64,000 nucleotides of DNA from a virus (IMGVR_UViG_3300050821_013910:1-64000), one strand, 5' to 3'. Positions 26,051-60,217 are shown, counted from the stretch's first letter. Numbers and translations: made by a program. Notes: generated from the sequence alone by a model not told the origin.

Positions 26051-26173
26051 TCCGGTAGTTCGAGCAGCACCGCCAGTTTTCCCTTGAGGCCGTGACCCTT
26101 TCCGACCTCCTGACCTCCACCCACCAACCCGTCGGCGACCTCCCCCCGTTCGCTCGACCCAGGAGTGATTGAA

Positions 26174-29102: not shown

Positions 29103-31417
29103 GTGCGAAGATAGTGTCGCAAAGAAAGTGGGCCAAGTTAGTCGCATCGACTAACTCCCTCTCCCAACCTCCCGGCGCAGTTACTCGGCTGAGTAACCTA
29201 TTGTTCACTCAGCGTGGTGGACTCCAAATCTGTTCCGGCTCCTTCCCCATCGGCTTCCTCCCCGCCTCCTACCCGCTCCCTCTCTCCGTCGCCGTCTTCT
29301 CGAACAACCTCACCCGTCAATACCCTTACTATTCCGCCCTCTCGCAGCGATCCTCTCCCCTGTTCGCCAACGTCACTGGGTTCACCGCCGCCCCCTCCGG
29401 CGCGACCACCAACCCGGCCGGGACCTACCTCTTTGCCATTGTCGCGATTGGCTCCTCCGCTGGCACCGACCACACCGGCATCACCACCCTCGGACCCTTC
29501 GCCGAGTTCACCACCGCCTCCACTTTCGCCTCCGTCATATTCAACTGGACCGCCGTCGTCGGGGCCTATGGCTACCAGATCTGGATGATCAACGCCAATC
29601 CTCTCTTCGGGACCAACCTTCTTGGCTCGCTCATCGCTACTGTCACCCCCGGCACGACCGCCACCTACACCTTCACTGGCACCCTGCCGCTCCCCGCCGC
29701 CCTGACCACCCCTGCGCCCTTCGCCAACACGACCCAGTACCTCAACCTTTTTGTCCTCTATCAGGTCCCGAACCATCCGATCACCGACCTGCTGACCGTG
29801 GGGGTTACTGGCGGCTCCTACCCCGCGCTCCCGCCCCAGGCCGCCTCGCTCCTGCCCGGCGACCCGGCCTTCGTCCCACTGACCCCCGCGCCAGGATTCT
29901 CCCCCTACGGCGGACTGGCCGGGGTGGCCTGCCCGATCCCCCAGCAGTTGACCTTCGCCGGGTTGGAAATCCTGATCCTCGGCAATGGCCTCCCCCCGCA
30001 GTCCTACGATCCCTCCCTCCTCGGAGCCACCCCCCCGGCCGCCCTCACGAACACCTTCACCGCCGCCTATCCGACCTGGCAGCCCTCGGTCTCGTGGCTC
30101 ACTGGCTCGCAGGTCACCGACGGGGCAGGGAACTACTACACGGCCACCCAGGGAGGAGTCAGCCAGACCCCCGGGCCTCCGACCTGGGCCACTGCCAAGG
30201 GCGCCGAGACAGCGGACGGGTCGGTCATCTGGACCTCGCAAGGCCCTATCATCACCCCCCCGGCGCCCCGCGCCGCCGCCCACGCCGTGGCCTACGCCGG
30301 CTCGCTCTGGCTCGCCAACACTTCCCCGACCACCACCACCGACCAGATCGACGGCCCGACCTGTCTGAAAATGTCCGACTCCAACAACCCCAACTCCTGG
30401 AACCCGGTCAACACCGCGTTCATCGGCCGGGACGACGGGACCCAGATCACCGGGCTCCAGCCGTTCACGATCGCCGCGCTGGGGATCTCTCCGACTGGGT
30501 CCCTGTGCGTGTTCAAGGAGTTTCTGACTTTTCAGGTGATCGGGGTCTTTGGCTCATCCTCCTTTGAAATCCAACCCGCGCAGACCAACCTTGGCTGTCT
30601 GGCCGCGCGGTCGATACAATTCCTGCCCGGGTTCGGGGTGGTCCGCTACTCCCACCTCGGGTTCGCCGTGTTCGACGGGATCAACGACCGGCTGATCTCG
30701 GAGGATATTCGGCCTTACCTGTTCGGCGGAGTAGACAGCGAATCCGACCTGACCCCCGTGGACCCGGCCTTCCTCTACCTCAGCCAGTCGGCCCAGACCG
30801 CCTCCCCGCCGATGTACCTCTGTGCCATGCCGCTGGCCGCCTCTCCTGCTGGCGGCCTGGGCTCCGGCATGCTCACCCGCCTCTTCTGCTACGACCTGGT
30901 GATGAAAGCCTGGGCCATACTCGACCTCCCTTGGCCGATCACCTCCCTGAGCGCCGCCACCGGCGGGGAGGGCTATCCACTGGTTCTCGCTGGCAAGACG
31001 GACGGGACCCTCCAGCGCCTCCAGTCCGGCGACCTGGCCTGGAACGAGAACCCCAGCACCGGGGTGGGGACGGCGGTGGCGTGGTCGTTTAGGTCGCCCG
31101 ATGTCTTCGGCGAGGGATCGAGCCAGAAAATCTTCTACCAGGAGGCAATCATTCGCGGCTACGGTTCCGCCGCGATGGTCCAGTCGATCCTTGCCCAACT
31201 CTGGCTGGACGGCAAGAACCTGGGAATGCTGCAACCCATTGACATCGTCCCCCAGGCCGGAACGACACTGTTCGAGGTACGGGTCAGCATTTTCAGGTCG
31301 GGATATCGCGCGCATCTGGATGTCAGCGGGAACAACGGAGGAGCGAGCGGAGTGATCGACGCGATTGACTGGGTCGTCACCCCAAAGAACAGTCAGGCAA
31401 GGCGGGTGATTGGATGA
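29099..31417 (+). CDS. tail hub / DNA stabilisation protein (P22 gp10-like), 772 aa
   Basis: ATGA overlap with the preceding gene. After a Pro/Thr-rich, Ig-like first half it holds a segment typical of P22 gp10 and related tubular proteins: VFKEFLTFQVIG, QTNLGCLAARSIQFLPGFGV, then YSHLGFAVFDG and INDRLISEDIRPYL. These proteins close the portal and form the hub of short-tailed phages. This is the best argument for podovirus morphology. Confidence 0.7.
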   Translation: MSAKIVSQRKWAKLVASTNSLSQPPGAVTRLSNLLFTQRGGLQICSGSFPIGFLPASYPLPLSVAVFSNNLTRQYPYYSALSQRSSPLFANVTGFTAAPSGATTNPAGTYLFAIVAIGSSAGTDHTGITTLGPFAEFTTASTFASVIFNWTAVVGAYGYQIWMINANPLFGTNLLGSLIATVTPGTTATYTFTGTLPLPAALTTPAPFANTTQYLNLFVLYQVPNHPITDLLTVGVTGGSYPALPPQAASLLPGDPAFVPLTPAPGFSPYGGLAGVACPIPQQLTFAGLEILILGNGLPPQSYDPSLLGATPPAALTNTFTAAYPTWQPSVSWLTGSQVTDGAGNYYTATQGGVSQTPGPPTWATAKGAETADGSVIWTSQGPIITPPAPRAAAHAVAYAGSLWLANTSPTTTTDQIDGPTCLKMSDSNNPNSWNPVNTAFIGRDDGTQITGLQPFTIAALGISPTGSLCVFKEFLTFQVIGVFGSSSFEIQPAQTNLGCLAARSIQFLPGFGVVRYSHLGFAVFDGINDRLISEDIRPYLFGGVDSESDLTPVDPAFLYLSQSAQTASPPMYLCAMPLAASPAGGLGSGMLTRLFCYDLVMKAWAILDLPWPITSLSAATGGEGYPLVLAGKTDGTLQRLQSGDLAWNENPSTGVGTAVAWSFRSPDVFGEGSSQKIFYQEAIIRGYGSAAMVQSILAQLWLDGKNLGMLQPIDIVPQAGTTLFEVRVSIFRSGYRAHLDVSGNNGGASGVIDAIDWVVTPKNSQARRVIG

Positions 31418-31553
31418 CCCAGAGCACTGTTATGCCCTTCTCCCTCCCTCTCCTCCCTTCCTCCTCGCTCTCCACCCGCCGCCCCGCTACCATAGTCCCA
31501 GAAGCCCTCCCCCAAGCTACGCGCAGACCTGTGTCCGGAGAGGGAGGAGCCTG

Positions 31554-32081
31554 ATGATTACTGAGACCCAGACCGCTCCTGCCGCCACTCCTATCGTCCC
31601 CGACCCTTCCTCCTCGGTCCTGATCCTCCCGGTCTCCTACGCCGCGATCCTCGACGACCCTGCCGCTCCTGCCCTCCTCCAGTCCTACGCCGAGGAGTGC
31701 CTCGTCCCGGATGCCTCCCCCCAGCGCCAGTTGTACGAGACCATGGAGAGGGTGGGAGCGATCCAGTGCTTCGGGGCCTACCTAGATGGAAACCTGTCTG
31801 GCTTCATCTCCGTCTTCCGGACAATCGTCCCGCACGACGGCCACCTGATCGCCTGCATCGAGTCCTTCTTCGTCTCCGCCCCCGCCCGACCGACCGGGGC
31901 CGCCCTGCTCCTCCTCGCTGCCGCCGAGCACCACGCGACCCTCTCGGGGTGCCGCTGCCTCTTGGCCTCTGCTCGCCTCGACTCCGCGCTCGACCTTCTC
32001 CTCACTCGCCGTCCCGGTTACGCACGGACCCACTCCCAGCACACCCTCTGGCTCAACGGGTACAAAGGAGGGAGGGAATGA
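31554..32081 (+). CDS. GNAT-like acetyltransferase, 175 aa
   Basis: The ATG at 31554 follows GAGAGGGAGGAG. A GNAT-like layout is seen: QCFGAYLDGNLSGFISV, then LIACIESFFVSAPARPTGAA (acetyl-CoA loop region) and LLLLAAAEHH. Acetyltransferase-like genes are frequent in podovirus tail modules, where their role is unclear. The same frame is open from TTG 31410, which lacks a site. The 136 bases before it are C/T-rich and hold no gene I can support. Confidence 0.6.
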   Translation: MITETQTAPAATPIVPDPSSSVLILPVSYAAILDDPAAPALLQSYAEECLVPDASPQRQLYETMERVGAIQCFGAYLDGNLSGFISVFRTIVPHDGHLIACIESFFVSAPARPTGAALLLLAAAEHHATLSGCRCLLASARLDSALDLLLTRRPGYARTHSQHTLWLNGYKGGRE

Positions 32082-32566
32082 ACCAGCCAAGCCTGATCGA
32101 CCAGACTGCCCTCGCGGCCATCCCCTCTAACGCCCTCGCGCCTCCCTCGCCCGCGACCCTCGACCGGCTCCACGAGGCCGACCGACTGATCCGCTCCTGC
32201 CCCCAGGTCGAAATCCTGACCGAGCACCTCCTCCACGGCGGGATGTACGCGCGGACCATCCGGCGGGGTCCCGGCGTCGTCGCCGTCGGCTCGGTCATCC
32301 TGCGCGCCACCATCCTGATCGTCAACGGCCCGTGCTCCCTGCTGACCGACCGGGGCCGCCTCGACCTCTCCGGCTACAACGTCCTCCCCGGGCTGCCCGG
32401 CCGCAAATCCTTCTCCCTGACCCACGGCCCAGTGGAGATGACTATGATCTTCCCTACCTCGGCCAGGACGGTCGCAGAGGCGGAGGAGGAGATATTCGGG
32501 GAGGCCAGCGACCTGATGTCCAGGCAGGACGGCAACGAGAACCAAGTAACCATCACCGGTCAGTAG
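32078..32566 (+). CDS. hypothetical structural-module protein, 162 aa
   Basis: ATGA overlap with the GNAT gene and GGAGGGAGGG upstream. Mixed alpha/beta (SVILRATILIVNGPCSLL) with an acidic C-terminus. Pairs of this kind (GNAT plus small protein) occur in podovirus tail regions. No family recognised. Confidence 0.55.
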   Translation: MNQPSLIDQTALAAIPSNALAPPSPATLDRLHEADRLIRSCPQVEILTEHLLHGGMYARTIRRGPGVVAVGSVILRATILIVNGPCSLLTDRGRLDLSGYNVLPGLPGRKSFSLTHGPVEMTMIFPTSARTVAEAEEEIFGEASDLMSRQDGNENQVTITGQ

Positions 32567-32587
32567 CCCGAGAAAGGACCACGCCCA

Positions 32588-33151
32588 ATGTCCGGCACCG
32601 TTTCCGCCACCACCGCCGCCCTGATCGCCGCCGCCGTCGGCGCGGTCGGCACCGGGGCCGGAGCCTACGAGGCTTACAACTCCTCGGCCGACCAAGCCGA
32701 GGCCCAACAGAAACAGCAGCAGGCCCTCCTCCAGCAACAGCGCCAGCAGGCCACCCAGGCCGACCTGACCAAGCGGGAGGCGGTCCTCGGCGCCCAGGGT
32801 CAGGCTCAGCAGCAGACCGGGGGATCGCTCACGGACCAGGGGACGGCGGCGTTGACGGACCTTCTCGCAGGCTATCCGGGTTATCAAGCTGGGACGAGCG
32901 GCACGGGCGGCTCCGGCACCAGCACCGGCCAGGGAGTCGGCTCCAGCGGCGTTCCCGGCCAGGGCGGGGCAGGCAGCCCCGGTCCCGCGCCCGACATTGC
33001 CGCCATCCTCGCTGCTCTCCGTAACCAGGGAGGAGGCTCTCCCTTCGGCGGCCCCGGCGGCCCCTCCCCCTCCTCCCTCTCCGGCGGCAACTGGCCCTCC
33101 TCCTCCCCCACCCCCTCGACCCGTTTCGAACTCGCCAACCCTCTTCTCTGA
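32588..33151 (+). CDS. putative ejection (internal virion) protein, 187 aa
   Basis: N-terminus MSGTVSATTAALIAAAVGAV is hydrophobic and could cross a membrane. A Gln-rich helix follows (AEAQQKQQQALLQQQRQQAT), then a long Gly/Ser/Pro tail. First of four consecutive genes of this character, as in podoviruses that inject proteins with the DNA. Confidence 0.55.
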   Translation: MSGTVSATTAALIAAAVGAVGTGAGAYEAYNSSADQAEAQQKQQQALLQQQRQQATQADLTKREAVLGAQGQAQQQTGGSLTDQGTAALTDLLAGYPGYQAGTSGTGGSGTSTGQGVGSSGVPGQGGAGSPGPAPDIAAILAALRNQGGGSPFGGPGGPSPSSLSGGNWPSSSPTPSTRFELANPLL

Positions 33152-33169
33152 GGAAAGGAGTCACCCCAG

Positions 33170-33829
33170 ATGTCCGGCACCCTCTCGGCCACCACCCTCG
33201 CTTCCCTGGCTCCTTACCTCCAGGACGCTACCCAGGTCGCCCAGCTCGGCTCCACGGCCTATAACATGTATAACCAGTACCAGAACCAGCAATACCAGAA
33301 CCTCCTGCGCTCCTACGCCCAGGACCCGGCGAAAATGAACGCCTACGCCGCCAAGTTCACCCAGCCCCTGACCGCCGGGCTCCAGCGGTCGGTCGCCAAC
33401 GAGACCCAGGGCTACCTCGCCTCCCGCGGGCTCTCGGACTCGCCCCAAATCTCCGAACAGGTCGAGGCCCAGGCCATCGCCCCCTACGTCCAGCAGAACC
33501 AGCAGGCCGGGTACCAGGATGCCTTGCAAGCGCTCGGACTGGGCGGCGGGGCGATCCCCCCGGCTCTGCAGCAACAGAACTCGCTCTCTGCGCTGGCCAA
33601 GGCCTTCTCGATGTGGGGCGCGGGCGGGACGGGCGGGGCAGGCAACCTAGCCCAACTCCTCAAACTCTCCCAAGCCGCTCCTACTCCCCCCACCACCCCC
33701 TACGACCTTAGCGGCGACTCTACCATCCCCTACGAGCCGACCCAGACCTGGGACTTCAGCAACTGGCAGCCGGATTACTCGGCGTCGGCCCCAGCCTCGG
33801 CGACCGGCGACACCGGTGGAGGAGGATAA
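33170..33829 (+). CDS. putative ejection protein, 219 aa
   Basis: Starts MSGTLSATTLASLAPYLQ, sharing the MSGT-x-SATT opening with the preceding protein. Tyr/Asn/Gln-rich helical segment (AYNMYNQYQNQQYQNLL), a central folded part (SVANETQGYLASRGLSDSPQ) resembling podoviral internal proteins, then a low-complexity tail. Confidence 0.6.
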   Translation: MSGTLSATTLASLAPYLQDATQVAQLGSTAYNMYNQYQNQQYQNLLRSYAQDPAKMNAYAAKFTQPLTAGLQRSVANETQGYLASRGLSDSPQISEQVEAQAIAPYVQQNQQAGYQDALQALGLGGGAIPPALQQQNSLSALAKAFSMWGAGGTGGAGNLAQLLKLSQAAPTPPTTPYDLSGDSTIPYEPTQTWDFSNWQPDYSASAPASATGDTGGGG

Positions 33830-33833
33830 GGTT

Positions 33834-35243
33834 ATGGCTGGCTTCTGGAACGCCCTCTCGGTCCTGGCCCCCGTCGCCCCGGCCCTCTCCGACGCCCAGG
33901 ACATCCGCGCCCAGCGCCAGGCCGACGCCCAGCGCCTGGCCCAGCAGGCCGCCGCCTTCCCCAAGGAACAGGCCCTCCGGGACGCCCAGATCACCGCCGA
34001 ACGCCTCGCCGCCCAATCCGAGCAGCAACGCCTTACCCAGGGCGCCCAGCCTACCATCATCGGTGAGCCCCAGTGGAACCCGGCCACTCACTCGAACCAG
34101 GTCCTGACCTTCGACCGCAACACCGGCGCCCTAGCCCTCCGCGACGCTCCCGGCATCGACCCCTCCGCCGCCGCCTCCGCCAAGTACGCCGCCGCCAAGT
34201 CCGACTACAAAAAGATCGCCGGCCGGGACCTCTCGCCTGAGGAAGACGAGAGCCTTTTCTTCCAGGCCTACGGGTACAAGCCGACCGCCTCCAGGATCAG
34301 CCAGCTCACGGGAGACGCAGGCAAGCCATACAAGGGAAACGACGGCCAGTACTACGTCAACGCCAAGGACGCCACCGGGGCCATTATCCAGATGCCCCTC
34401 GGTCCTAACTACCAGCCTCCCGCTCCCAAGCCAGCCACCTCCCCTTCCGCCATCTTCGCCAATCTCCTGACCAAGCAAATCCTGGCCAGCAAGCGGCAGG
34501 GTCCTCCTCTGTCCGCACAGGAATCCGCCCAACTCGTCGCCACCCGCGCGGCCCTGGACGAAGCCGGAGTCGCCCGCGCCAACGCCATGGCCCAGGCCAA
34601 CGCCGCCAACCACCTCTACCTCGTGACCGACCCCAACACGGGCATGGAGACAGCGATCCCCGTGGCCGCCGGAATCGCCGCCTACAACCAGGGCACTCCC
34701 TTCCTCGCCGGCGCGGTCTCAGCCCCCACCGGTTCCGACAAGAAGAACTCCATCCTCGCCCAGTCGGCCATCCAGCAGGTCAACCGGATGCAGTCGATTC
34801 TCAAGGCTGACCCCAAGCTGACCGGCCCCGGGTCAGGTCAGCTAACCCGGCTCCAGATGTGGCTCGGGACCCAGGACCCCGATGCGCAACAATTCCTCAT
34901 TTCCTCCCTCCTGGCCTCGGAACACGGGGTGGCGGTCTTCGGCGGGAGGAATATCCACACTATCTCGGACCTTCAGAACGCGCTGGGCTCGATGAAGACC
35001 AACCCGGCCGCGCTGTCCGCCGCCCTGGACGTGGTGAAGGAGACGATGGCACCGTTTGCGACGGCGGGGGGGAGGTTGCCGGCACCGGGGACTGGAGGAG
35101 CAGGGGCAGGGGGAGCAGGAGGAACAGGTTCCACCACTCCTCCAAAAAATACAGTCACCCTCAAGGCAGGCGGCAAGGTCTATAACATCCCCCGTGATCG
35201 GGTAGCGGCGTTCAGGAAGGACCATCCCGATGCCACCCAGTGA
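33834..35243 (+). CDS. putative ejection protein, 469 aa
   Basis: The ATG at 33834 follows GGAGGAGGATAAGG; the in-frame GTG at 33816 is less likely. The N-terminus is a long Ala/Gln/Arg helix (AQDIRAQRQADAQRLAQQAA), the middle is folded, and the C-terminus is Gly-rich followed by KVYNIPRDRVAAFRKDHPDA. Overlaps the next gene by 14 bases. Confidence 0.55.
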   Translation: MAGFWNALSVLAPVAPALSDAQDIRAQRQADAQRLAQQAAAFPKEQALRDAQITAERLAAQSEQQRLTQGAQPTIIGEPQWNPATHSNQVLTFDRNTGALALRDAPGIDPSAAASAKYAAAKSDYKKIAGRDLSPEEDESLFFQAYGYKPTASRISQLTGDAGKPYKGNDGQYYVNAKDATGAIIQMPLGPNYQPPAPKPATSPSAIFANLLTKQILASKRQGPPLSAQESAQLVATRAALDEAGVARANAMAQANAANHLYLVTDPNTGMETAIPVAAGIAAYNQGTPFLAGAVSAPTGSDKKNSILAQSAIQQVNRMQSILKADPKLTGPGSGQLTRLQMWLGTQDPDAQQFLISSLLASEHGVAVFGGRNIHTISDLQNALGSMKTNPAALSAALDVVKETMAPFATAGGRLPAPGTGGAGAGGAGGTGSTTPPKNTVTLKAGGKVYNIPRDRVAAFRKDHPDATQ

Positions 35244-37395
35244 CAAGTGGGCGCAGTACGAGGTCGGGGCTCCTGCTCCTGCGGCCAAGCCAGCTGCCAA
35301 GCCCGACAAGTGGGCGCAGTACGAAGCCACGCCCGCCGCACCGACCGCTCCCACCCCCGCCGCCTCCGCCGCCCCCACCGGCGTCCTCCGCGCCCCCACC
35401 GAGCGTGAGCGCTTCCTCCAGCCCGAACTCTACCCGGTCGGGCTCAAGGGGGAAGGGGTCGGCGAGAACATCCACAACCTCTTCCAGCGCGGAGGGGTCG
35501 GGATATTCCAGCTGGCCGACGCGGCCACCCACCCGCGCCAGACCTTGGCCTCGATCCTCGCCTCCATCTCCCCGGAGCCAGCCGTCCACGCGGCCAACCG
35601 GGTGGTGGACTGGGAGAACCGCATCCCCGGTATGCACTACTTCACCACCCACCTGCCCGAGCGCACCACTAATCCCCTCCAGCAGGCCTACTCTGCCCTC
35701 CTGACCTCCCAGAACCCGGTCGAGGCCGCTGGCAAGGCGGCTCCCCTCGCCGGCCAGGCCCTCGCCACCGCCGGCCTGGGCGAGGTCCTCCCTCCCGTGG
35801 CCGCCGATATTCGCGCTGGTGTTCGCTCCGGCGCTGAGTCCCTGGCCCGCTCCGTTACCGACACCGGCACCGGCCCGGTCAAATCCCTGGTCGAGAAGAC
35901 GCAACTGGAAAACAAGGGGATCGACCTCGCTAACCAGGACCGGATCGCGGCGCACACCCGAGCCCGGACCGCCGCCGACGAAGCCAACGCCGCCGCCCTC
36001 CGCCAGTACAACCAGCGTGTAGGCCAGACCATCCAGCAGCGCCGCGCCGCCGCCGCCGCCGACCAGGCCCGCCGCACCGCCCAGGCCGACACCCAAGTCT
36101 ACGGGTCGCAACTGATCTACGGGTTGAGGCAACTAGACCGTTCCCTCCGTGACCGTGCTGCGACGATGTTCGACGGGGTGCGCGCTCGGGTTGCACAGTC
36201 CGGCCAGCCTCCTCTCCCCGGGACCGAACTCGGCTCAGCCGCCCGCACTGCTCTGGCCAAAGTCACCGGCTCCTCGGAACTCCCCAAACCCTTCCGCGAC
36301 ATCCTCGGCAAGTATCCCGACGACGCGGCTCCCGACTTCGTATACCAGGGAGGAGTGAAGTTTGGCCCCGGCACTCCCCTGTACGAATCGGTGAAGGCGG
36401 CGGGGAACCTGCCTGCTGCCGCCCCGCCCGTAACCTTCGCCGACCTTCAGGGATACTACTCCGAGACCGGGTCGGAACTCGCCAAAGGAACCCTCCCGGG
36501 CGACATCTACCAGGCCACCCGCGACCTTCACAACTCGGTGGGGGACATGATGCAGCGGATGGCGGACAAGGCAGGGGCAGGGAAGCAGTTCTGGGACTCG
36601 CGTGTTTTCTACCGCAACTACATGAACACCTTTCATGAGCCAACCGGTCCCTCGGGTTCTGGTTCCCCCGTCGCGCAGGTTCTCCTCGCCAAGGACCCGG
36701 CTGTGGCCGTGGCCCGGTTCTCCGGACCTGCCGGGGCGCGCGGAGTGGCCCTTCTGCGGCAGTACCACCAGGGGTTGGCTGACCTCGCTCAGCGCGCTGG
36801 CCGGATCAAGCAGGAGGTGGCCGCCCAGACCTCCCAAGCCGCCGCCCCCCGGACTCCCAGGTCCATCACCTCGATCCCTCCGGCCAGGACCACCACCCCT
36901 CCCGCCCTCGAACTCCGCCCCCGTGCCACCATCTCCTCGCCGGACCTGGCCGCCGCCCGCCGCGCCGCCGCCGAGGCCCGGGTGAACCGGATCGCCAGCC
37001 GCGGACAGTGGGCGGCGACCTGGCCTCTGTTCCAGGCCGCACGAGCGCTCTGGGGCGGACACATTCCATCCATCCCCACGATGGGGTTGGAGTCGGCGGG
37101 GATGCTGGCTACGGTCCGAGCCACCACTCACCTCCTCCGCTACCCTCCCCTCAGGCAATTCTTGGAGCAGGCCCGCCCGGAGGACGTCCCGCTGATTCCA
37201 CCTGAACTACGGGGGGACCTCCCTGGGCTGGTCAGTCAGGCCCAGAGGCAGGGGATCAAAGTCTCTCCGGCGCTGACGGCGGCGGTGGCGGCGGGAACAA
37301 CGGCGGCTGGGCAGGCAGGGCAGGCAGGCAGGCAGTCAGTACAGGCAGCGCCCATAGCGCAACCAACGCCTGCCCCCGCAGGAGCCGTCCAGTGA
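35230..37395 (+). CDS. putative large ejection / internal virion protein, 721 aa
   Basis: The N-terminus carries two copies of DKWAQYE (residues about 5-11 and 26-32) joined by an Ala/Pro linker. Then come long Ala/Arg-rich helices (TRARTAADEANAAALRQYNQ, RRAAAAADQARRTAQ) and C-terminal Gly/Gln/Ala runs encoded by GGCA-type microsatellite DNA near 37313. Size and composition fit the largest injected protein of a podovirus. No enzyme domain recognised. Confidence 0.55.
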   Translation: MPPSDKWAQYEVGAPAPAAKPAAKPDKWAQYEATPAAPTAPTPAASAAPTGVLRAPTERERFLQPELYPVGLKGEGVGENIHNLFQRGGVGIFQLADAATHPRQTLASILASISPEPAVHAANRVVDWENRIPGMHYFTTHLPERTTNPLQQAYSALLTSQNPVEAAGKAAPLAGQALATAGLGEVLPPVAADIRAGVRSGAESLARSVTDTGTGPVKSLVEKTQLENKGIDLANQDRIAAHTRARTAADEANAAALRQYNQRVGQTIQQRRAAAAADQARRTAQADTQVYGSQLIYGLRQLDRSLRDRAATMFDGVRARVAQSGQPPLPGTELGSAARTALAKVTGSSELPKPFRDILGKYPDDAAPDFVYQGGVKFGPGTPLYESVKAAGNLPAAAPPVTFADLQGYYSETGSELAKGTLPGDIYQATRDLHNSVGDMMQRMADKAGAGKQFWDSRVFYRNYMNTFHEPTGPSGSGSPVAQVLLAKDPAVAVARFSGPAGARGVALLRQYHQGLADLAQRAGRIKQEVAAQTSQAAAPRTPRSITSIPPARTTTPPALELRPRATISSPDLAAARRAAAEARVNRIASRGQWAATWPLFQAARALWGGHIPSIPTMGLESAGMLATVRATTHLLRYPPLRQFLEQARPEDVPLIPPELRGDLPGLVSQAQRQGIKVSPALTAAVAAGTTAAGQAGQAGRQSVQAAPIAQPTPAPAGAVQ

Positions 37396-40379
37396 GAAAG
37401 ACCCTCCGCGTCGTAGTTCTCTGCCTTCTCGGCCTCCTTGGCCTTCTCTGTCTATCCGCCTTGGCCCAAATCCCCTCCGGTTTCGTCCAGACCACGGCCA
37501 CGGTCCCCTCCCTGGCCAACGCCCAGATGACCGCCTCCTGGACCAACCTCTCCACCTCCCAGCAGCTTCCTCTCCTGGGCGGCTCGTCCACCTTCCAGAC
37601 CGCCGTCTCCTCCCGGCTCGACTCCAACGGCCACTTCTCGATCCTCCTCGCCGACACTGGGCAGATCATCCCGACTCCCTCGACCTGGACATTCAACTTC
37701 ATCTTCGCCTGTCCCTCCTCCACCACCTCCGGACCAGGCGGCTTCTTTGTCTCGGTCGCAGTCACGGGCGGCGGCGGGACCCAGGACATCTCCGCCCAAA
37801 TCACCGCCGCCCTCCCGGCCAACCCCTGCGGGACCCTCCCCACCGCCCCCGCGGCCCCTCTGACCCCTACCCAGTTCGGTGCCAAGGGGAACGCGGTGGT
37901 GGTGCTGGACGGGAACAACACAGGCGGATCAGCCGTCCTCACCACCACCTCCTCGACCCCGTTCAACTGCCCGGGTGACATTGGCAAGCCAATCGGGATC
38001 ACCGGCGCAGGCCCCTACTCGACTGCCAATCACAACCTCGCCGACCAGCTCATCCCGACCACGTTTGTCTCGACCATCCTGTCCTGCCAGTCGCCCAGTC
38101 AGGTAACCCTCGCCGCCGCCACTCCCTCGAACTCCGGAGTGGTAACCTCCCTGACCTACACTTCTGGCATCACGGCAACCGGCTCGACCAACCAGACCTG
38201 CCTACTCACCGGGTTCAACAACGGCTGGACCGGGGGGACTGGCACCATCGCCCTCACCGGCACCAACACCATCGCCTCTGGGACCCCCATCCTGATCACC
38301 CTCCAGGGTTCCCCGGCCTCCCCCGGGCCGACCTCGGCCACCGCCGGCAGCGGCACCGCCACCTGCTCCGGCACGGCCACCCTGACCTCCACTCTCGCTC
38401 CCACCTCAGTCGCCAACCAGTGGACGGCGTTCGGTACCGACGACACCGCCGCGATCCGAGCCTGCATCGCGGCCGGGACCAACCTCGGCGGCCAGTGCTA
38501 CCTCAGCGACGGCCTGACCTTCATGGCCTCCAGCACCACCACTACCATCCTCCTCTCCAGCGCCTCGGGGATCGAAGGGGGAGTGGTCGGAGGGTTCGGG
38601 AAGATCATCTTCATGCCGCAGGGGACTCTGACCGGAGGCACGAACGATCGCTTCCTCTTCCTCCTGTCCAATATCGTCAGCTCCTCCTGCACCTCGGGCG
38701 GCGGCGGCATCTACGTCAACGTCTGCGCGATCACCTCCGCCCCGCTCGCCAAGGGTGCCACCTCCTTCACTGCCTCCGCGGCCGACGGCGCCCTCCTCTC
38801 CCCGGGTCAGTGGGCCATCGTAGAGGAGGTCTACTCCCCCGGCGGCTGCTGCAACTATATCGACTGGGTGAAGGTCGCCTCGGTCAGCACGGTCGGCGGA
38901 ACGGCCACCATCACCCTCGACAAGCCTCTCGAAATGGCCTTCCCCCAAGACACCAACAACTCCATCCCCGACGTCGTGGGGTTCCGCCCGGTGACCGCCC
39001 TGGCCTCCCACCTGACCCTGCGCGATTTCACCCTCATCACGCCTCCGATGTACGACGCTGCCCAAGGCCGCCGCCCCAACTCGATCAACACCCAGGGGAC
39101 CTACGGCCTGCTGATCAAGAATGTGAAGTGTTGGAACGCGGCCAAGAACTGCCTGGCCACCGACTACGACAACGCGATGAAAGTCGAGGACAACTACTGG
39201 CATATCGAGGGGACCGGGACCGAGATCGCCAACACCGTCCACGCGATCATCACCGGGAATCACTTCGTCAAGGAGCCCTCCTCGATCAACCAGAAACAGT
39301 CAGCCTGCACCGGCGGCTCCTCCCCCTCCGGCCTGAACGTCGACCTCGCCACCGCCTTCTCCTCGATCGACAACAACCAGGTGGATGGCTGCCAGGTCGG
39401 GCAGTACTCGCTCCAGGGCGCCCACGACAACACTTACTCGCACAACCAGTACTCGTGGCTGGCGGGCTCGACGGCCGGCACCTCCTGCGTGATCGCCCAG
39501 GGCGGGTACAACAATGTCTTCGCCGAGAACAACTGCGTCGGAGCAACCGTCTCCGGGTCGAACGGATTCGATGTGACCGACGTGGCCGCCAATCCCTCTC
39601 TGAAGTCCAACAACAACCTGATCCTGTTCAACACGGTAGACCCGGCGACCTTCACCCATCCCTACGTCGTGACCGGCTCCCTCGGCACCGACTGCTACTC
39701 CTACCTCTCCGGGGGCGACGTCGTCGGCACCTGCCTGATCTCCCCCTCCGGCACCAACACTTTCTCCGGCACCAACACTTTCGCCAACAACGCCGACTCG
39801 ACCTACAACGCCATCATCCTGCAGTCCGGCAAGACGGCCACCCAGGTCACCAACCTCTACTTCTCCGACTACAACGGGACCCAGGAGTGGGACCTGGAGA
39901 AGGATGCGACCAACGGATTCCGCATCCGCAACGCCATCACCAACTTCGCCAACCTCCTCTTCAGCCAGGCGACCGGCCAGACCACGCTCAACGCCGTTGG
40001 ATCAAGCAATATCTGTTTCAACTGTGTAGCCAGTTCGGGGACCTTGGGCGCGGTGTTCGGAAACGGAACCGCCTCCTCCAACGTCGCCTCGATTGACGGC
40101 ACCGGCCTCGCCAAGTTCTCCGCCGGCATCGACCTCAGCGGCGGCACCGGAGGGATGAAGCTCAAGGATCAAGGTCAGTGCACGATGTCGACCGGGACCT
40201 GCTCCGCGCAGACTCTCGGCCACACCTACGCGACCCCTCCGCTGTGCACGGTAACCTGGACTGGGACGGGGACTCTGGCCGGGTCGACCAAGGTCGCCTC
40301 GACCACTACCACCGTCACGCCATCCAGTAGCGTCGGCACTGATACTGCGCTGGTGAACTGGCTGTGCTTCGGGAACTAG
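37392..40379 (+). CDS. tailspike/fibre-like protein with Sec signal peptide, 995 aa
   Basis: GTG start overlapping the preceding TGA. A textbook signal peptide: basic RK, then LRVVVLCLLGLLGLLCLSAL, with likely cleavage after ALA or ALAQ. A beta-rich domain of about 120 residues follows, then a pectate-lyase-like parallel beta-helix beginning TPTQFGAKGNAVVV, and a C-terminal trimer-type tail. Probably the host-binding or glycan-cutting spike. The signal peptide is odd for a virion protein. Confidence 0.7.
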   Translation: MRKTLRVVVLCLLGLLGLLCLSALAQIPSGFVQTTATVPSLANAQMTASWTNLSTSQQLPLLGGSSTFQTAVSSRLDSNGHFSILLADTGQIIPTPSTWTFNFIFACPSSTTSGPGGFFVSVAVTGGGGTQDISAQITAALPANPCGTLPTAPAAPLTPTQFGAKGNAVVVLDGNNTGGSAVLTTTSSTPFNCPGDIGKPIGITGAGPYSTANHNLADQLIPTTFVSTILSCQSPSQVTLAAATPSNSGVVTSLTYTSGITATGSTNQTCLLTGFNNGWTGGTGTIALTGTNTIASGTPILITLQGSPASPGPTSATAGSGTATCSGTATLTSTLAPTSVANQWTAFGTDDTAAIRACIAAGTNLGGQCYLSDGLTFMASSTTTTILLSSASGIEGGVVGGFGKIIFMPQGTLTGGTNDRFLFLLSNIVSSSCTSGGGGIYVNVCAITSAPLAKGATSFTASAADGALLSPGQWAIVEEVYSPGGCCNYIDWVKVASVSTVGGTATITLDKPLEMAFPQDTNNSIPDVVGFRPVTALASHLTLRDFTLITPPMYDAAQGRRPNSINTQGTYGLLIKNVKCWNAAKNCLATDYDNAMKVEDNYWHIEGTGTEIANTVHAIITGNHFVKEPSSINQKQSACTGGSSPSGLNVDLATAFSSIDNNQVDGCQVGQYSLQGAHDNTYSHNQYSWLAGSTAGTSCVIAQGGYNNVFAENNCVGATVSGSNGFDVTDVAANPSLKSNNNLILFNTVDPATFTHPYVVTGSLGTDCYSYLSGGDVVGTCLISPSGTNTFSGTNTFANNADSTYNAIILQSGKTATQVTNLYFSDYNGTQEWDLEKDATNGFRIRNAITNFANLLFSQATGQTTLNAVGSSNICFNCVASSGTLGAVFGNGTASSNVASIDGTGLAKFSAGIDLSGGTGGMKLKDQGQCTMSTGTCSAQTLGHTYATPPLCTVTWTGTGTLAGSTKVASTTTTVTPSSSVGTDTALVNWLCFGN

Positions 40380-40402
40380 GAAGAGGAGGAGGATTGCAAC
40401 TA

Positions 40403-43400
40403 ATGCGCAGACTGGCAATCTCGACAATCCCGTTCGTCCTGCTGGGCGCAGTCCTATCCCTCGCCCTCGCCCTCTCTGCCCCGGCCCAAATCCCCAAAGG
40501 CTTCGTCCAGACTACCGGGACCATCACCGCGCTGGCCAACGGGAAGTACCAGGCCTCCTGGACCAACCTCTCGTCCTCCTCCCAGCTCCCCCTCCTCGGC
40601 GGCGTCTCGACCTTCCAACAAACCGTCAGCGGGTCCCTCGACGGGAACGGCTTCTTCTCTGTTCTCCTTGCCGACACCTCCCAGGTCACCCCCTCCCCCT
40701 CGACTTGGACCTTCAGCTTCACCTACAACTGCCCTCCGACCAACACCGGATTCACGGTCCAGGTGGCGGTGGTCGGCGGCGGGGGGACCGAGGACATATC
40801 CAGTCAGGTCATCGCGGCCCTGCCTTCCAATCCCTGTAGCGGCGGAAGCGGAGGTCAGGGGACGGTCAACCCCGGTCAGCTCGCCTTGGCACAGTACCCT
40901 AAAACCTCCCAAACGGTAGTCAGCCCAGCCAACTTCACCTACGACGCGGCGACCGGAAACAACCTGACCATCCCGGCCAACACATACCTGGCCTCGTCGG
41001 TCGGCGGCGCTCAGCCCCTGCTCGACATCCGCCACCCTTCGTTCTCTGGGGGGGCGGTGTGCGACAACTCCACCGACATCGGGCCGGCACTGCAAGCGGC
41101 CATCACCGCTTTACCATCAACCGGTGGGGAGATCCTTATTCCCGGATCACCCACGCCCTGCTACTGGAACCCGGGAACTAGTCCTCTATCGGGTTTGACG
41201 AGCAAGACGGGCGCGGTAACGTTCTATGTGCAGGGGCAATTACACACCGAGACCACGATCGAAATTCCCAACACCAGCAACAAGGTGAACTTTATCGGTC
41301 GCTCGGGAGCGGCGGGGCAATCCTTCCAGGGGCCAGGACAAGCGGCGGTCATTGTGGTTCGCCCCAAGAGCAAGAACGGATACTACTCGGGAACTCTCGG
41401 AACGGCTGTCAGCACCACGCCGGGAGTCGGTTCGGTTGTGACCTTCACCCCGCCGGGCGGCATCGTCGGTCTCTACGCCAACACGACTATCACCGTTGGG
41501 GAAACCATCTCCTGCTCCTTGGCGTCCGTCTCCAGAGCTTCAGGCAAGGTCACAGCCTCCATCTCCTCGGCTTGCCATATCCCTCCCAACATGCCGGTAA
41601 CGGTGGCGGGCGTGACTGACTCCAGCTTCAATGGCGCTTTCGCCGGTGGAGGGTTCCCGCAGAACTTCGTCGTCACCGCGCAGGACTACTGCGGAGGCAG
41701 CGTGGCGACCTGCAACACCGCCACAACTCTGGTGTGGAACCAGACCGGCGCAACCGCAACATCAAGTGGCGGAACGGTGACGGGATTCAACGAAGATCTG
41801 TTCGAGAACGTGCACATTACCTCCTGCGCCACCACGACCTGCACCGCCACCTTCTACCGCTCCCACGCCTCCACTGCGCAGTGGGCAATTGACGGCATCG
41901 ATATCGATGATGTGGCAGGCGACAGCAAACTGTTTAAGGATTTCCGTGTGGTGGCTGACGGAACCGGCATTTTCGATGAAGCCGACTTCAAGACAACATT
42001 TGAGAACATCGGCATCGGCTCGACGCAGAACTGCAACGGGAATGTGGTCAACTGGCCTTTTGCCGAGGGACTGGGATCGTTCATCACCCTGCGAAACGTC
42101 GGCTTCGACACGGGCTGCAACGCATGGGGAATCAGGATGTATCAGCCCTTCCCCAACTCGGGAGGTGGCAGCGGGCCGATGACGGTTAAGGATTACTCCT
42201 ACGTCATGGGCGGAGTGAAGATGGACTCCGGAGCCGCCGGCCTGGTCCTCGACAACATGACCTGTGAGCAGTGCGGCAGAGGCGTAGTCCAGATCGACCC
42301 CACCAACTACGTGACCGGAATCCAGCAGATCGTTACGCTCAGCAACGAGGTCGGGGTGCAGGACAACGGCAACGGCACAGACGGATGCTCGATCTATCAA
42401 CTTACTCCGGTGCTGACGGGAACACAACTTGCCCGCCCGATCGTCAGCCTCAACTCGCTTGGGTCTAACTTCTGCGTCACCAATCAGTGGTTCACGGGCA
42501 AGTTGAACAATCAAAGCCCCCAGTTCACGTCCAGCTACGACACCACCACCAACCCAGGCATTCGGGGCACATTCAACGATGGGCTGACGACTGACTCCGA
42601 CGACAGAGGGAGAGCGTCGGGAATGGGGCCGTCCGTTATTCCCTACGCCACCCTGAACACCGTTACCAGCCCGGCAAGCTGGCCCACCTCCTCTTGCAGC
42701 GTGGCGACCGGGACGATGGCCCCTGACGGCACGCTGACCGCTGGAACCCTCACCAAGGCTTCTGGCTCAGGTTCAAGCATGGTCCTCTCCTACACCTTCA
42801 CTCCCGCCGTGGGAGACTACTTTATCGCCGGGGTATGGGTCTACGACAGCGCCGACACCAAGTCCGATAACGCCGGAGGCGAAGCGATGCTGGCAGACAA
42901 CGCCGGCAGCTCTCACTACGGTTGGGACGCGGGGTCTCAGGCCAACAGCAACGCCAGCGATTCCCAGCAGACGGATGACTGGTATCACCCTGTTGTCTGG
43001 GTTGCGCATGTGGCAACTTCGGACGGAACCTCCGGACAGCTAGCCAGATTCTTCCTTACCTGCGCCGCCGGATTCACCCAGAATTACTGGCAGCCTTTTG
43101 TCATCTATATCCCCGCCTCGGCCAACGTCCCGTTGCGGGAGATCAATCGCTGGCGTCAGCAGTTGATGCACGGCGCGGTTCCACCGAACTGGAACAATCC
43201 GGGCGTGGCGGTGACGGCTGAACCTCTAGTGGCGAGTTCCCTAAACGTTTTTCCTGGCCGAGGCGGAACCTTTGTCTGCACGGCCGGCGGAACGATCACC
43301 ATCGCCAACACCAACGAGCTAGCGACCTCCGATGTAATCTTCAGTCTGAACACTGCGGGAGGAACAATCACCACGCCCCCGGCAATGAAAACCGTAACCG

Positions 43401-43471
43401 CAGGGACAGGATTCGCCGTGTTGTGCGGAGCGAGCGACACGAGCACCTACAACTACGTCATTTTGAATTGA
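40403..43471 (+). CDS. second tailspike/fibre-like protein with signal peptide, 1022 aa
   Basis: The ATG at 40403 is preceded by GGAAGAGGAGGAGG. Signal peptide RRLAISTIPFVLLGAVLSLA up to SAPAQ. The next 120 residues match the same part of the preceding protein closely (both have FVQTT, ASWTNLS, QLPLLGG, STFQ, LLADT, STWTF, GGGGT, DIS and NPC). The remainder is a beta-helix-like spike with FENVHITSC and KDFRVVADGTG repeats and a distinct C-terminal region. Confidence 0.7.
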   Translation: MRRLAISTIPFVLLGAVLSLALALSAPAQIPKGFVQTTGTITALANGKYQASWTNLSSSSQLPLLGGVSTFQQTVSGSLDGNGFFSVLLADTSQVTPSPSTWTFSFTYNCPPTNTGFTVQVAVVGGGGTEDISSQVIAALPSNPCSGGSGGQGTVNPGQLALAQYPKTSQTVVSPANFTYDAATGNNLTIPANTYLASSVGGAQPLLDIRHPSFSGGAVCDNSTDIGPALQAAITALPSTGGEILIPGSPTPCYWNPGTSPLSGLTSKTGAVTFYVQGQLHTETTIEIPNTSNKVNFIGRSGAAGQSFQGPGQAAVIVVRPKSKNGYYSGTLGTAVSTTPGVGSVVTFTPPGGIVGLYANTTITVGETISCSLASVSRASGKVTASISSACHIPPNMPVTVAGVTDSSFNGAFAGGGFPQNFVVTAQDYCGGSVATCNTATTLVWNQTGATATSSGGTVTGFNEDLFENVHITSCATTTCTATFYRSHASTAQWAIDGIDIDDVAGDSKLFKDFRVVADGTGIFDEADFKTTFENIGIGSTQNCNGNVVNWPFAEGLGSFITLRNVGFDTGCNAWGIRMYQPFPNSGGGSGPMTVKDYSYVMGGVKMDSGAAGLVLDNMTCEQCGRGVVQIDPTNYVTGIQQIVTLSNEVGVQDNGNGTDGCSIYQLTPVLTGTQLARPIVSLNSLGSNFCVTNQWFTGKLNNQSPQFTSSYDTTTNPGIRGTFNDGLTTDSDDRGRASGMGPSVIPYATLNTVTSPASWPTSSCSVATGTMAPDGTLTAGTLTKASGSGSSMVLSYTFTPAVGDYFIAGVWVYDSADTKSDNAGGEAMLADNAGSSHYGWDAGSQANSNASDSQQTDDWYHPVVWVAHVATSDGTSGQLARFFLTCAAGFTQNYWQPFVIYIPASANVPLREINRWRQQLMHGAVPPNWNNPGVAVTAEPLVASSLNVFPGRGGTFVCTAGGTITIANTNELATSDVIFSLNTAGGTITTPPAMKTVTAGTGFAVLCGASDTSTYNYVILN

Positions 43472-43479
43472 GGACATCC

Positions 43480-44814
43480 ATGCGCAAGAGTTTATTCGTG
43501 CTAACGCCGCTGGCCACCCTGGTCACCCTGGCCACTGTCGCGGCTTATCCTCAGGCCCTCACCTACACCCCTCCCCAGATCAGCGCCTACAAATGGACTG
43601 GCAGCGCGTGGACGGCGGCGACCTCGACGGCGACTTCAGGCGCGATCACCTTTACTCCCCCTCCGGCGGCGCTCTACTGTTTCAATTCCAGCCTCGGAGC
43701 CTCGGGGCAGTGGGTGCCGGCGGACTCGTCCTGTTTCGGCGGTGGTGGGGGATCGGGGACGGTTACCAGCGTGGCCTTGGTGGGCAGCGGGACTCTTTTC
43801 AGCGCCACTCCCGGGACCGCCGTCACAACCTCCGGCACCCTCAATGTCGATTCCCAACTCCAGACGCAGAGCGCCAACTGCATCGTCTCCGGGCCTACTA
43901 CAGGCTCTGCTGCAACACCGACCTGCCGCGCGCTGGTCAACGCCGACTTCCCCGGCACTCTTGCGCCGACAATCAGCGCGGCCAATTTGACCGGCTTCCC
44001 AACGTTTAACCAAAACACTACAGGCAGCGCCGGCAGCGTGACCAACGCCCTGACGCTCAACAACAGCAACTCCGGAGCGGCTTCGGGCACAACCTACAAC
44101 GGAAGCGGGGCGGTGACGCTTTCGGCCAACACTCTAGGCGCAGGGTCGCTGACGAATGCTAACTCATGGTCGGCCGCACAGACCATCACCGTAGCTGGTG
44201 CTGCTTCGACACCCAATATTTTCGACACCGGCTCAGTGTTCACAGGCGGATCGACAACCACAACTGCTCCGCACTGGCTAATTCAGCCAGCCTCAGTAAC
44301 GGGAGGAGCGATCTGGAGCACATCAGGAACCGGGTTGGGAATGAACTTTGCGTCGGGGTTTGTCGGCAATACGATCGACATCCATGTAAACAACGGCGGC
44401 TCGACATTCAAAGCCGACGGAAGCGGTAACCTGACCGTTACGGGCGGATTGAACGGAGCCAGTGTCACAGCAACCGGAACGCTCAAAGGAGCGAAGCTTG
44501 CCAGCTCCACAAATTGCGCAAGCGGGGCCTCTCCTGCGGTCTGCGGATCGGCCATGTCGGGATCGGCTGCGATGCCAACCGGAACGAATCCAACTCTGGT
44601 TGTTAATACCACAGCCGTCTCCGCCGCCAGTGAGATTCTAATCACCGTAGACGATTCAGTCACGATCGGCGGGACAACATGTAATAGTACCCTGGCTACT
44701 CTCGTAGGAGGGATGGCCGTAACAGCGCGCACGGCAGCCACCAGTTTTACAGTGAGCTACAACGGAACCATTGCCGTCAATCCTGTTTGTTTTAGTTACC
44801 AGATAATCAATTAG
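43480..44814 (+). CDS. fibre-like protein with signal peptide, 444 aa
   Basis: The ATG at 43480 lies behind GAGGACATCC; in-frame upstream sequence belongs to the preceding gene. Signal peptide RKSLFVLTPLATLVTLATVA, then a Ser/Thr/Gly/Asn-rich repetitive beta region (TGSAGSVTNALTLNNSNSGA) like the shaft of phage fibres. Ends with a short folded tip. Confidence 0.65.
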   Translation: MRKSLFVLTPLATLVTLATVAAYPQALTYTPPQISAYKWTGSAWTAATSTATSGAITFTPPPAALYCFNSSLGASGQWVPADSSCFGGGGGSGTVTSVALVGSGTLFSATPGTAVTTSGTLNVDSQLQTQSANCIVSGPTTGSAATPTCRALVNADFPGTLAPTISAANLTGFPTFNQNTTGSAGSVTNALTLNNSNSGAASGTTYNGSGAVTLSANTLGAGSLTNANSWSAAQTITVAGAASTPNIFDTGSVFTGGSTTTTAPHWLIQPASVTGGAIWSTSGTGLGMNFASGFVGNTIDIHVNNGGSTFKADGSGNLTVTGGLNGASVTATGTLKGAKLASSTNCASGASPAVCGSAMSGSAAMPTGTNPTLVVNTTAVSAASEILITVDDSVTIGGTTCNSTLATLVGGMAVTARTAATSFTVSYNGTIAVNPVCFSYQIIN

Positions 44815-45537: not shown

Positions 45538-46095
45538 ATGAGAAAGCTTCCCCTGTTCCTTCTTGTCGCTGTTATGGACGCTCTCTGCCTCCACGCGCAA
45601 ACCTCTTACACGGTTCTCGGAGGAACGAACTGCGGGCCAGCCACGACAACCGTGTCGTGCGTAATTCTGATTCCACCCGCGAACGCTCTGGGAATCTATC
45701 CGAATATTCAAGTGTCATTCAACCCGCTCACCGGATTAGGGACGATCGAATTCGAGACATTTCAGTTGGTAGAGAACTCACCCAATGGTCCCAATCTTGG
45801 AGCGGGCACAATAAGTCTAGCAGCGCCTGTATTCCAGACCGTCACCTCGAATGGACAGACTAGCTACCAGATCACCGATCTTACAATCTATGGATATGGC
45901 TCCTATGTGCCCGCATCGGGCATCGCTCCTTGCCCTGGGCCAGATGCGCATGGGCAGCTTGACCCTTCTCGATGCTGGGTGATCAAGCCAGCGACCCTGC
46001 ATTTTTTGTATAGATCGGTATTTCATCAAGGCGGGACGTATACGTGGGAGCGTTCATTCAGGGCTGGGGAACTTACGTTTTCAGAGATTGAGTAG
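45538..46095 (+). CDS. exported protein of unknown function, 185 aa
   Basis: Signal peptide RKLPLFLLVAVMDALCLHAQ with likely cleavage after HAQ. The mature part is beta-rich with four Cys, possibly disulfide-bonded (GGTNCGPATTTVSCV, APCPGPDAHG, SRCW). No family recognised. Less GC-rich than its neighbours. Confidence 0.6.
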   Translation: MRKLPLFLLVAVMDALCLHAQTSYTVLGGTNCGPATTTVSCVILIPPANALGIYPNIQVSFNPLTGLGTIEFETFQLVENSPNGPNLGAGTISLAAPVFQTVTSNGQTSYQITDLTIYGYGSYVPASGIAPCPGPDAHGQLDPSRCWVIKPATLHFLYRSVFHQGGTYTWERSFRAGELTFSEIE

Positions 46096-48225: not shown

Positions 48226-48396
48226 ACAAAGGAGGTTAGCGATGAGACGCCCACCATAACGCTGTAACTGACCAATAGCGGTCCCTCCCCGGCGGCAACC
48301 GGGGCGGGACCAAAATCCAGAACGCGGGGCTAGCCGCACTCCAGACCCTTTTCAATTGTGCGCTTTCCCTGCCCTCACTTCAAGGGGAAAGACGCC

Positions 48397-49365
48397 ATGA
48401 ATCCTGCACCATACGAGCCTCAGACGCTCACGGATGCGGTCCGCTACTACTCCAACGAACAAACCTGCATTGACCTTCTGGCTTCGCTCCGGTGGCCCGA
48501 TGGACAGGTGATCTGCACTGCTTGTGGCGAGGTCGGAAACACGATCTGGCTTGCCAACCAGAAGCGCTGGAAGTGCCGGGGGTGCAAAAAGCAGTTCTCC
48601 ATTAAGGTCGGGACGATCATGGAAGACTCACCTATCGGCCTCGACAAATGGATGGTCGCATTCTGGATGCTAGCCAATTGTCGCAATGGGGTATCGTCTT
48701 ACGAAATCATGCGGGCGATTGGCGTCACTCAGAAATCCACATGGCACATGCTGCACCGGATTCGACTGGCCATGACAGACCTCGCCACAGGAAAGCTCGG
48801 GGCAGCGACTCCGATTGAGATTGACGAAACCTTCGTCGGCGGGAAAGTAAAAAACATGCACAAATCGCGCCGTGTAAAGAGTCTGGATTATCACGCTGGG
48901 AAGGGTAAAGCGATTGTCATGGGAATGCTGGAAAGAGGCGGTCGAGTCCGCGCTAGAGTCATCGCGGATCGCAAAGTACAAACCATGCGACCGGTACTGG
49001 AAGGCAGCGTTGAACGTGGTGCCCACGTATTCACCGACGAGCACGTGAGCTATCCCTTCCTGGCCAAGGAAAACGACTATGCGCATGAAATCATCAATCA
49101 CATCGAAGGCTACGTCAGGGGGCATATCCACACGAACGGAATTGAGAATTTCTGGTCATGCCTGAAACGCAGTTTGGGCGGAACGTACATCAGCGTGGAG
49201 CCGTTCCATCTAGAGCGTTATGTCGATGAACAAGTATTCCGGTTCAATCTCCACAAGAAAGATCATAGCGACGCAGATAGGTTCAAGGCCGCATTGAAGG
49301 ACATTGTGGGTCGTAGATTAACCTTCGCGGAATTGACGGGGAGGCTGGCCCCAGCGACCTACTAA
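48397..49365 (+). CDS. IS1595-family (ISXO2-like) transposase, 322 aa
   Basis: An N-terminal zinc ribbon, CTAC...CRGC (about 43-65), is followed by KVGTIMEDSPIGLDKWMVAF and the DDE-type catalytic region: TPIEIDETFVGGK, VFTDEHVSYPF and TNGIENFWSCLKR, all hallmarks of the family. The ATG at 48397 sits behind AAGGGGAAAGACGCC; an in-frame GTG at 48358 is possible. The frame is intact. I could not find convincing terminal inverted repeats or a target duplication. Confidence 0.9.
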   Translation: MNPAPYEPQTLTDAVRYYSNEQTCIDLLASLRWPDGQVICTACGEVGNTIWLANQKRWKCRGCKKQFSIKVGTIMEDSPIGLDKWMVAFWMLANCRNGVSSYEIMRAIGVTQKSTWHMLHRIRLAMTDLATGKLGAATPIEIDETFVGGKVKNMHKSRRVKSLDYHAGKGKAIVMGMLERGGRVRARVIADRKVQTMRPVLEGSVERGAHVFTDEHVSYPFLAKENDYAHEIINHIEGYVRGHIHTNGIENFWSCLKRSLGGTYISVEPFHLERYVDEQVFRFNLHKKDHSDADRFKAALKDIVGRRLTFAELTGRLAPATY

Positions 49366-60216: not shown

Positions 60217-60217
60217 G

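Follow-up and report, generated by a model that had tools for sequence, protein, structure and literature searches.

Predicted Sec-exported tail-spike-type proteins in a phage of short-tailed type

Three consecutive phage genes, here called A, B, and C, encode cysteine-rich proteins that combine predicted Sec signal peptides with the modular build and gene position of tail spikes. By a slender balance of probability they are spikes of a short-tailed-type phage that leave the cytoplasm through Sec, become oxidised in the periplasm, and are added to virions when the cell lyses or later. The window analysed here is bases 1–64000 of a virus record that totals 74,562 bases; the relatives are metagenomic contigs only, and the gene calls are simple ones. 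Coordinates within the window refer to the plus strand unless marked otherwise.

Genes A to D and their predicted signal peptides

Gene A (37392–40379) begins with a GTG codon and encodes a predicted exported tail-spike-type protein of 995 aa with 26 cysteines in its mature part. Its putative 25-aa signal peptide (37392–37466) has the cleavage site ALA↓Q, which gives the N-terminus MRKTLRVVVLCLLGLLGLLCLSALA↓QIPSGF. Gene B (40403–43471, ATG start) should likewise produce an exported tail-spike-type protein, 1022 aa long and with 20 cysteines in the mature part, whose 28-aa signal peptide (40403–40486) would be cut at APA↓Q (MRRLAISTIPFVLLGAVLSLALALSAPA↓QIPKGF). Shine-Dalgarno-like sequences lie 5′ of both genes (gcaggag and gaggaggagg, respectively), and Shine-Dalgarno use is marked in the record. 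Gene C (43480–44814, ATG start) encodes a predicted exported fibre-type protein of 444 aa with eight cysteines in the mature part; its 22-aa signal peptide (43480–43545; MRKSLFVLTPLATLVTLATVAA↓YPQ) is the weakest of the four, with a cleavage site less canonical than those of A, B, and D, and its counterpart in a related phage (L005:15070–17100) has a clear cleavage site, VPMFG↓Q. The product of gene D (45538–46095, ATG start) is a small predicted exported protein of 185 aa with a signal peptide at residues 1–20 and four cysteines in the mature part; its leader ends in LHA↓Q rather than in an Ala-x-Ala motif (MRKLPLFLLVAVMDALCLHA↓QTSY), and searches of Pfam and PHROG found no family for it.

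A preliminary description of this DNA had proposed Sec-type leaders for the genes that start at 37392, 40403, and 43480, and a fourth exported protein from 45538. All four pass a home-made heuristic that scores the n-, h-, and c-regions (threshold 3.0), with values of 4.8 for A, 4.1 for B, 3.1 for C, and 3.8 for D, whereas none of the 75 other called genes in the 74,562-base record reaches 3.0. When the first 60 residues were shuffled, the real score was matched in 0, 8, 48, and 20 of 5000 trials for A, B, C, and D, respectively; chance was rejected as an explanation. A basic n-region, a hydrophobic h-region, and small residues at −3 and −1, as expected for Sec and signal peptidase I, are found in A, B, D, and all relatives and are weaker in C, so that the leader pattern runs past the 37392–44814 interval first described, to D and to all relatives. 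Inspection of the leaders found no lipobox, and lipoproteins were rejected on that ground. Sec export of A–D, with leaders predicted from sequence, is thus well supported.

Domains, cysteines, and position of the cassette

A and B are 61% identical over their N-terminal 149 alignment columns, leader included, and have no other BLASTP-detectable similarity. The shared N-terminal domain of ∼120 aa (37470–37829 in A and 40490–40837 in B) was found by profile scans in 17 IMG/VR contigs; with one near-duplicate contig dropped, 18 distinct copies were compared, the two of the window and 16 others from related contigs. A scan with the domain only, the leader left out, returned the same IMG/VR contigs as the scan with the leader, and the leader therefore did not select the set. 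In all 18 copies the signal peptide ends where the domain begins. The leaders vary from 19 to 36 aa, and their pairwise identity is 21% (18.5% for shuffled leaders) versus 66% for the domains; while the leaders have diverged, the cleavage site, Ala/Gly↓Gln, is kept, and so is the beginning of the mature domain. A leader whose properties are kept while its sequence is free is what is expected of a cleaved signal peptide; a virion anchor or docking peptide would keep its sequence.

The N-terminal domain has no match in Pfam, PHROG, PDB, or GenBank phages, and its profile found nothing among PDB sequences. It has no relative among 84,980 bacterial and archaeal species genomes, which were searched twice, and hence neither a prophage nor a clue to the host came from that source. 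A direct search of viral contigs with A gave no match, nor did searches of GenBank phages with A, B, and both tip domains. An AlphaFold2 model of the N-terminal domain is a transthyretin-like beta sandwich (pLDDT 79), and its viral matches include tail-fibre-type proteins of Rhodobacter phage RcapNL and Pseudomonas phages LIT1 and phCDa; tail-fibre and spike entries rank high for this model and for that of the C tip, though the E-values in PDB are weak. Between the terminal domains, A, B, and their relatives match nothing in Pfam even at a weak threshold, the central parts of A and B match nothing in PHROG or among PDB sequences, and these searches recognised no catalytic beta-helix or lyase/hydrolase domain in A or B. 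This weakens the case for an enzyme more than that for a fibre, since many spikes lack such matches.

The C-terminal tips are modular. That of B (43229–43468) weakly matches Pfam K1-lyase_C (PF24146, 1.3e-5, just under the curated cut-off), the C-terminal domain of a K1 capsule lyase. It occurs on 77 contigs, partly on leaderless proteins of other viral contigs, and in B itself (residues 943–1022) it shares 57% identity with the tip found on a relative's protein whose N-terminal domain is different. The C tip (44491–44811), which has four cysteines conserved in all 29 aligned relatives, is 59% identical to the tips of two other proteins; the first PDB matches of its model (pLDDT 83) are the Klebsiella phage K64-1 depolymerase S2-4 and the cyanophage Pam1 tailspike, with weak E-values. 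Judged by these alignments, tips appear to have been exchanged between proteins with different N-termini, which is the modular exchange typical of fibres, and a conserved N-terminal domain with exchangeable C-terminal modules is the build of a tail spike or fibre. The third cassette protein of one relative matches phrog_4636, a tail spike. A B-type tip is also found by itself, in L079, L080, and L082: 5886–6210, where a 108-aa open frame consists of a signal peptide and the tip domain alone and would encode a stand-alone exported tip.

Cysteines make up 1.9–2.7% of the mature parts of A–D versus 0–1.2% of structural neighbours that lack a signal peptide, four of which have none. One cysteine pair of the N-terminal domain is invariant in the aligned copies. 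A second (columns 38 and 67 of alignment A6) has both members in 10 and neither in 8 of the 18 copies, with no mixed case, and at least three joint changes are placed on the tree. The B tip occurs both on proteins with a predicted leader and on leaderless ones, and its cysteine pair goes almost exclusively with the former: of the exported versions 14 of 20 have the pair, of the non-exported ones 1 of 42 (Fisher 1.8e-8, without correction for kinship). The pair turns up in at least two separate tree groups, both exported, on a tree with few well-supported branches; with so few well-supported independent events, and with kinship controlled only in part, the association of signal peptide and cysteines points to a direction rather than giving proof. 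The sole version with two cysteines and no signal peptide is in L077, and its start is uncertain, whereas a leaderless C-type protein in L061 has four cysteines nonetheless. Folding of the mature parts of A–C outside the cytoplasm, with disulfide bonds, is a well-supported prediction from these patterns.

The cassette follows genes of head and tail type. The terminase gene (15795) is followed by the major head protein gene (26165–27160; phrog_9953, 1.1e-21), a tail-type gene (29099–31417) whose conserved product is, from its position, probably a tail nozzle or stabiliser, a GNAT gene (31410), a short tail-fibre/adhesin-like gene (32078–32566; phrog_12032, 3e-9; phrog_24280), and two genes for Cys-free proteins (33816–35243 and 35230–37395) that, by position, are probably DNA-ejection or internal virion proteins; none of the products from 29099–31417 and from 32078 to 37395 has a signal peptide. 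Then come A, B, and C, and the stop codon of 35230–37395 overlaps the GTG start of A. The GNAT acetyltransferase gene and the short tail-fibre-like gene beside it (31410–32566) are kept as a pair in L004 and L005. In T7 the nozzle gene is followed by those for internal proteins and the tail fibre, and the succession of nozzle-type gene, ejection-type genes, and A-B-C appears to be this same order, the upstream roles being partly assigned from position.

The phage group was sampled with the 29099–31417 protein as the query, so that the spikes did not choose the phages. In all 12 contigs picked with this marker that run past the ejection-type genes (two of them near-identical), a signal-peptide gene follows those genes; the genes between marker and cassette lack leaders, bar two borderline calls in the 12 contigs. 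The cassette thus lies where a tail spike or fibre is expected, after the nozzle and ejection genes (roles partly assigned from position), in 12 syntenic contigs. Adjoining large genes in relatives also often have leaders (three in a row in L005, and in L006, L008, L012, L016, L018, L019, and L020). Leaders, gene position, and module exchange support the earlier view of A–C as fibre- or spike-type proteins that are exported, and the modelled folds point weakly the same way.

Export, mounting, and alternative explanations

Head-tail phage particles, fibres included, are normally assembled in the cytoplasm. Here, the host Sec system would export A, B, and C and signal peptidase I would remove the leader, with the cut falling directly before a Gln in A, in B, and in almost every relative and probably before Tyr in C; disulfide bonds would then form outside the cytoplasm, in the N-terminal domain and the C-terminal tips. 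Both of these steps are well supported by the sequence patterns described above. The mature proteins would form a pool in the periplasm during the time in which the cytoplasm produces heads and tails; periplasmic pooling is suggested because Pfam searches of A–D and the scanned relatives recognised no T9SS sorting domain, autotransporter beta barrel, or other outer-membrane secretion or anchoring domain. In the last and least certain step, lysis would join the two pools, the conserved N-terminal domain might dock on the completed tail, leaving the variable C-terminal regions to bind or cut the host surface glycan. Such two-compartment assembly, with cytoplasmic heads and tails and periplasmic disulfide-bonded spikes that meet only when lysis breaks the envelope, is a tentative proposal, very nearly evenly balanced in our judgment. 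Mounting on virions appears the most likely fate after export because both ends of the proteins resemble tail-fibre parts and the genes lie at the tail-fibre position. Late mounting is feasible, since P22 tailspikes can attach to completed particles in vitro. On the other hand, A and B have one common docking domain and would compete for one site, which counts against mounting. The phage also encodes the short tail-fibre-like protein without a signal peptide, and A–C therefore need not be its sole receptor-binding proteins.

Among known systems, A–C are most readily set beside the spikes and fibres of short-tailed phages, namely T7 gp17, the P22 and Sf6 tailspikes, and the Klebsiella phage depolymerases, which they resemble in position after nozzle- and ejection-type genes (the T7 order being general knowledge), in joining a conserved N-terminal domain to C-terminal modules that can be exchanged, and perhaps in the fold of the C tip, whose model resembles spike C-terminal domains with weak PDB E-values. 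Those spikes, however, lack a signal peptide and reach their fold inside the cytoplasm, whereas A–C look like Cys-rich Sec precursors. Inovirus coat proteins are virion proteins that pass the inner membrane by means of signal peptides, but inoviruses are filamentous and assembled at the membrane, whereas this is a head-tail phage with terminase and capsid genes. The signal-peptide proteins of Porphyromonas gingivalis phages (Nixviridae) likewise have Sec leaders and a +1 Gln, but a role on the host envelope is proposed for them (PMC10367356); here the tail-spike cassette itself appears to be exported, in a pattern that runs through the phage group. Signal-peptide and SAR endolysins such as fOg44 Lys44 also rely on host Sec ahead of lysis (reviewed in PMC6116005), but they are lysis enzymes and A–C are spike-type proteins. 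We found no precedent in the literature for Sec export with late spike mounting; for exported tail fibres, the literature searches yielded nothing beyond the P. gingivalis phages and the endolysins.

It is possible, if doubtful, that A–C are instead secreted non-virion proteins derived from tail spikes, that is, free depolymerases. The leaders would then require no special assembly route, the short tail-fibre-like protein could serve adsorption, the P. gingivalis phages offer a parallel in their Q-rule signal-peptide proteins (proposed host-envelope modifiers; PMC10367356), and this phage also has a sugar-nucleotide and glycosyltransferase cluster. A corresponding role, in which they clear exopolysaccharide or destroy or mask receptors and so aid progeny escape or block superinfection, is conceivable with the same reserve. 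Yet two large tandem genes with one common N-terminal domain and swapping tips are built like virion fibres, the modelled fold of that domain has viral tail-fibre-type proteins among its matches, the cassette lies right after the ejection-type genes in every phage of the group, and the Pfam searches turned up nothing that would take the proteins across the outer membrane or anchor them in it.

The remaining explanations fit less well. The preliminary description had offered, as an alternative to export, that the hydrophobic N-termini stay in the virion or membrane, and short anchors do resemble signal peptides; nevertheless, an uncleaved anchor, with the particle assembled at the inner membrane, is very unlikely, since leaders of widely varying length have diverged to the level of shuffled sequence and lack a lipobox while the cleavage motif, with its +1 Gln, directly precedes the mature domain in every one of the 18 copies, and the co-varying cysteine pairs of the mature domains also disfavour it. 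Uncleaved anchors were rejected on the contrast of near-random leaders with a fixed cleavage site. Capture of secreted host enzymes as cargo, with export a relic of bacterial origin, would account for signal peptides typical of bacterial envelope proteins, but is very unlikely indeed: the species genomes hold no relative of the N-terminal domain, the position of the cassette is conserved while its sequences diverge, and the B tip is widespread in leaderless proteins on viral contigs. Finally, hydrophobic stretches are common in genomes with a GC content of about 60%, such as this one, and the leaders might be a prediction artefact of Ala/Leu-rich N-termini in a high-GC genome; this is scarcely credible given the 75 other genes, the shuffles, and a property conserved without sequence, which count against it for A, B, and D, C alone being weaker.

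If spikes are indeed exported, oxidised, and mounted at lysis, this would be a new assembly route for head-tail phages, whose assembly is taught as cytoplasmic; it would explain how phages use disulfide-stabilised receptor-binding proteins, and a leader together with cysteine pairs would be a sequence rule by which to find them. If A–C are instead secreted and not part of the virion, an entire phage group devotes several kilobases to secreted proteins that act on surfaces. In either case, the annotation habit that a signal peptide means "not a virion protein" deserves a test.

The +1 glutamine, the host, and other features of the record

Gln follows the predicted cleavage site in all 18 N-terminal domain copies; it is present at +1 in A, B, and D and absent in the window's C. 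In the wider tip-domain sets (loci L036–L152), 43 of 49 phage proteins have it, against 3% Gln among residues of the mature parts. This Q-rule, a signal peptidase I site followed by Gln, has been described as exclusive to Bacteroidetes (PMC5837995, PMC10653852). The 18 copies conform to it, but the phage differs in its GC content of about 60% and marked Shine-Dalgarno use. These two traits are untypical of Bacteroidetes; hence the host may belong to another phylum, for which Acidobacteriota is a guess, and the rule may not be exclusive to Bacteroidetes.

An IS1595-type transposase gene (48358–49365; 1.9e-37) lies inside the phage record, and its best plasmid relatives are 31–38% identical. A further candidate exported protein (MKHLALLLFLSLLSPVARGEALPDAPVPSAV...) is encoded beyond the window, near the other end of the record (L003:12584–13105, minus strand), in a frame perhaps dropped by the simple gene caller; it has no family and no plasmid match. 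Neither the transposase, the search for this gene in plasmids, nor the capsid or polymerase relatives gave a useful host signal.

The sugar-nucleotide and glycan cluster occupies 1969–7913 and includes genes for dTDP-sugar isomerase-like and RmlD-like proteins, a UDP-GlcNAc 2-epimerase (8.6e-80), an NAD-dependent epimerase, a methyltransferase, and family 2 and DXD glycosyltransferases; besides apparently exporting spikes, the phage may thus remodel host or virion glycans. On the minus strand, a single open frame (56041–60234) joins uracil-DNA glycosylase-like, LAGLIDADG endonuclease (with traces of intein splicing), and family A DNA polymerase sequences, and is probably an intein-bearing fusion.
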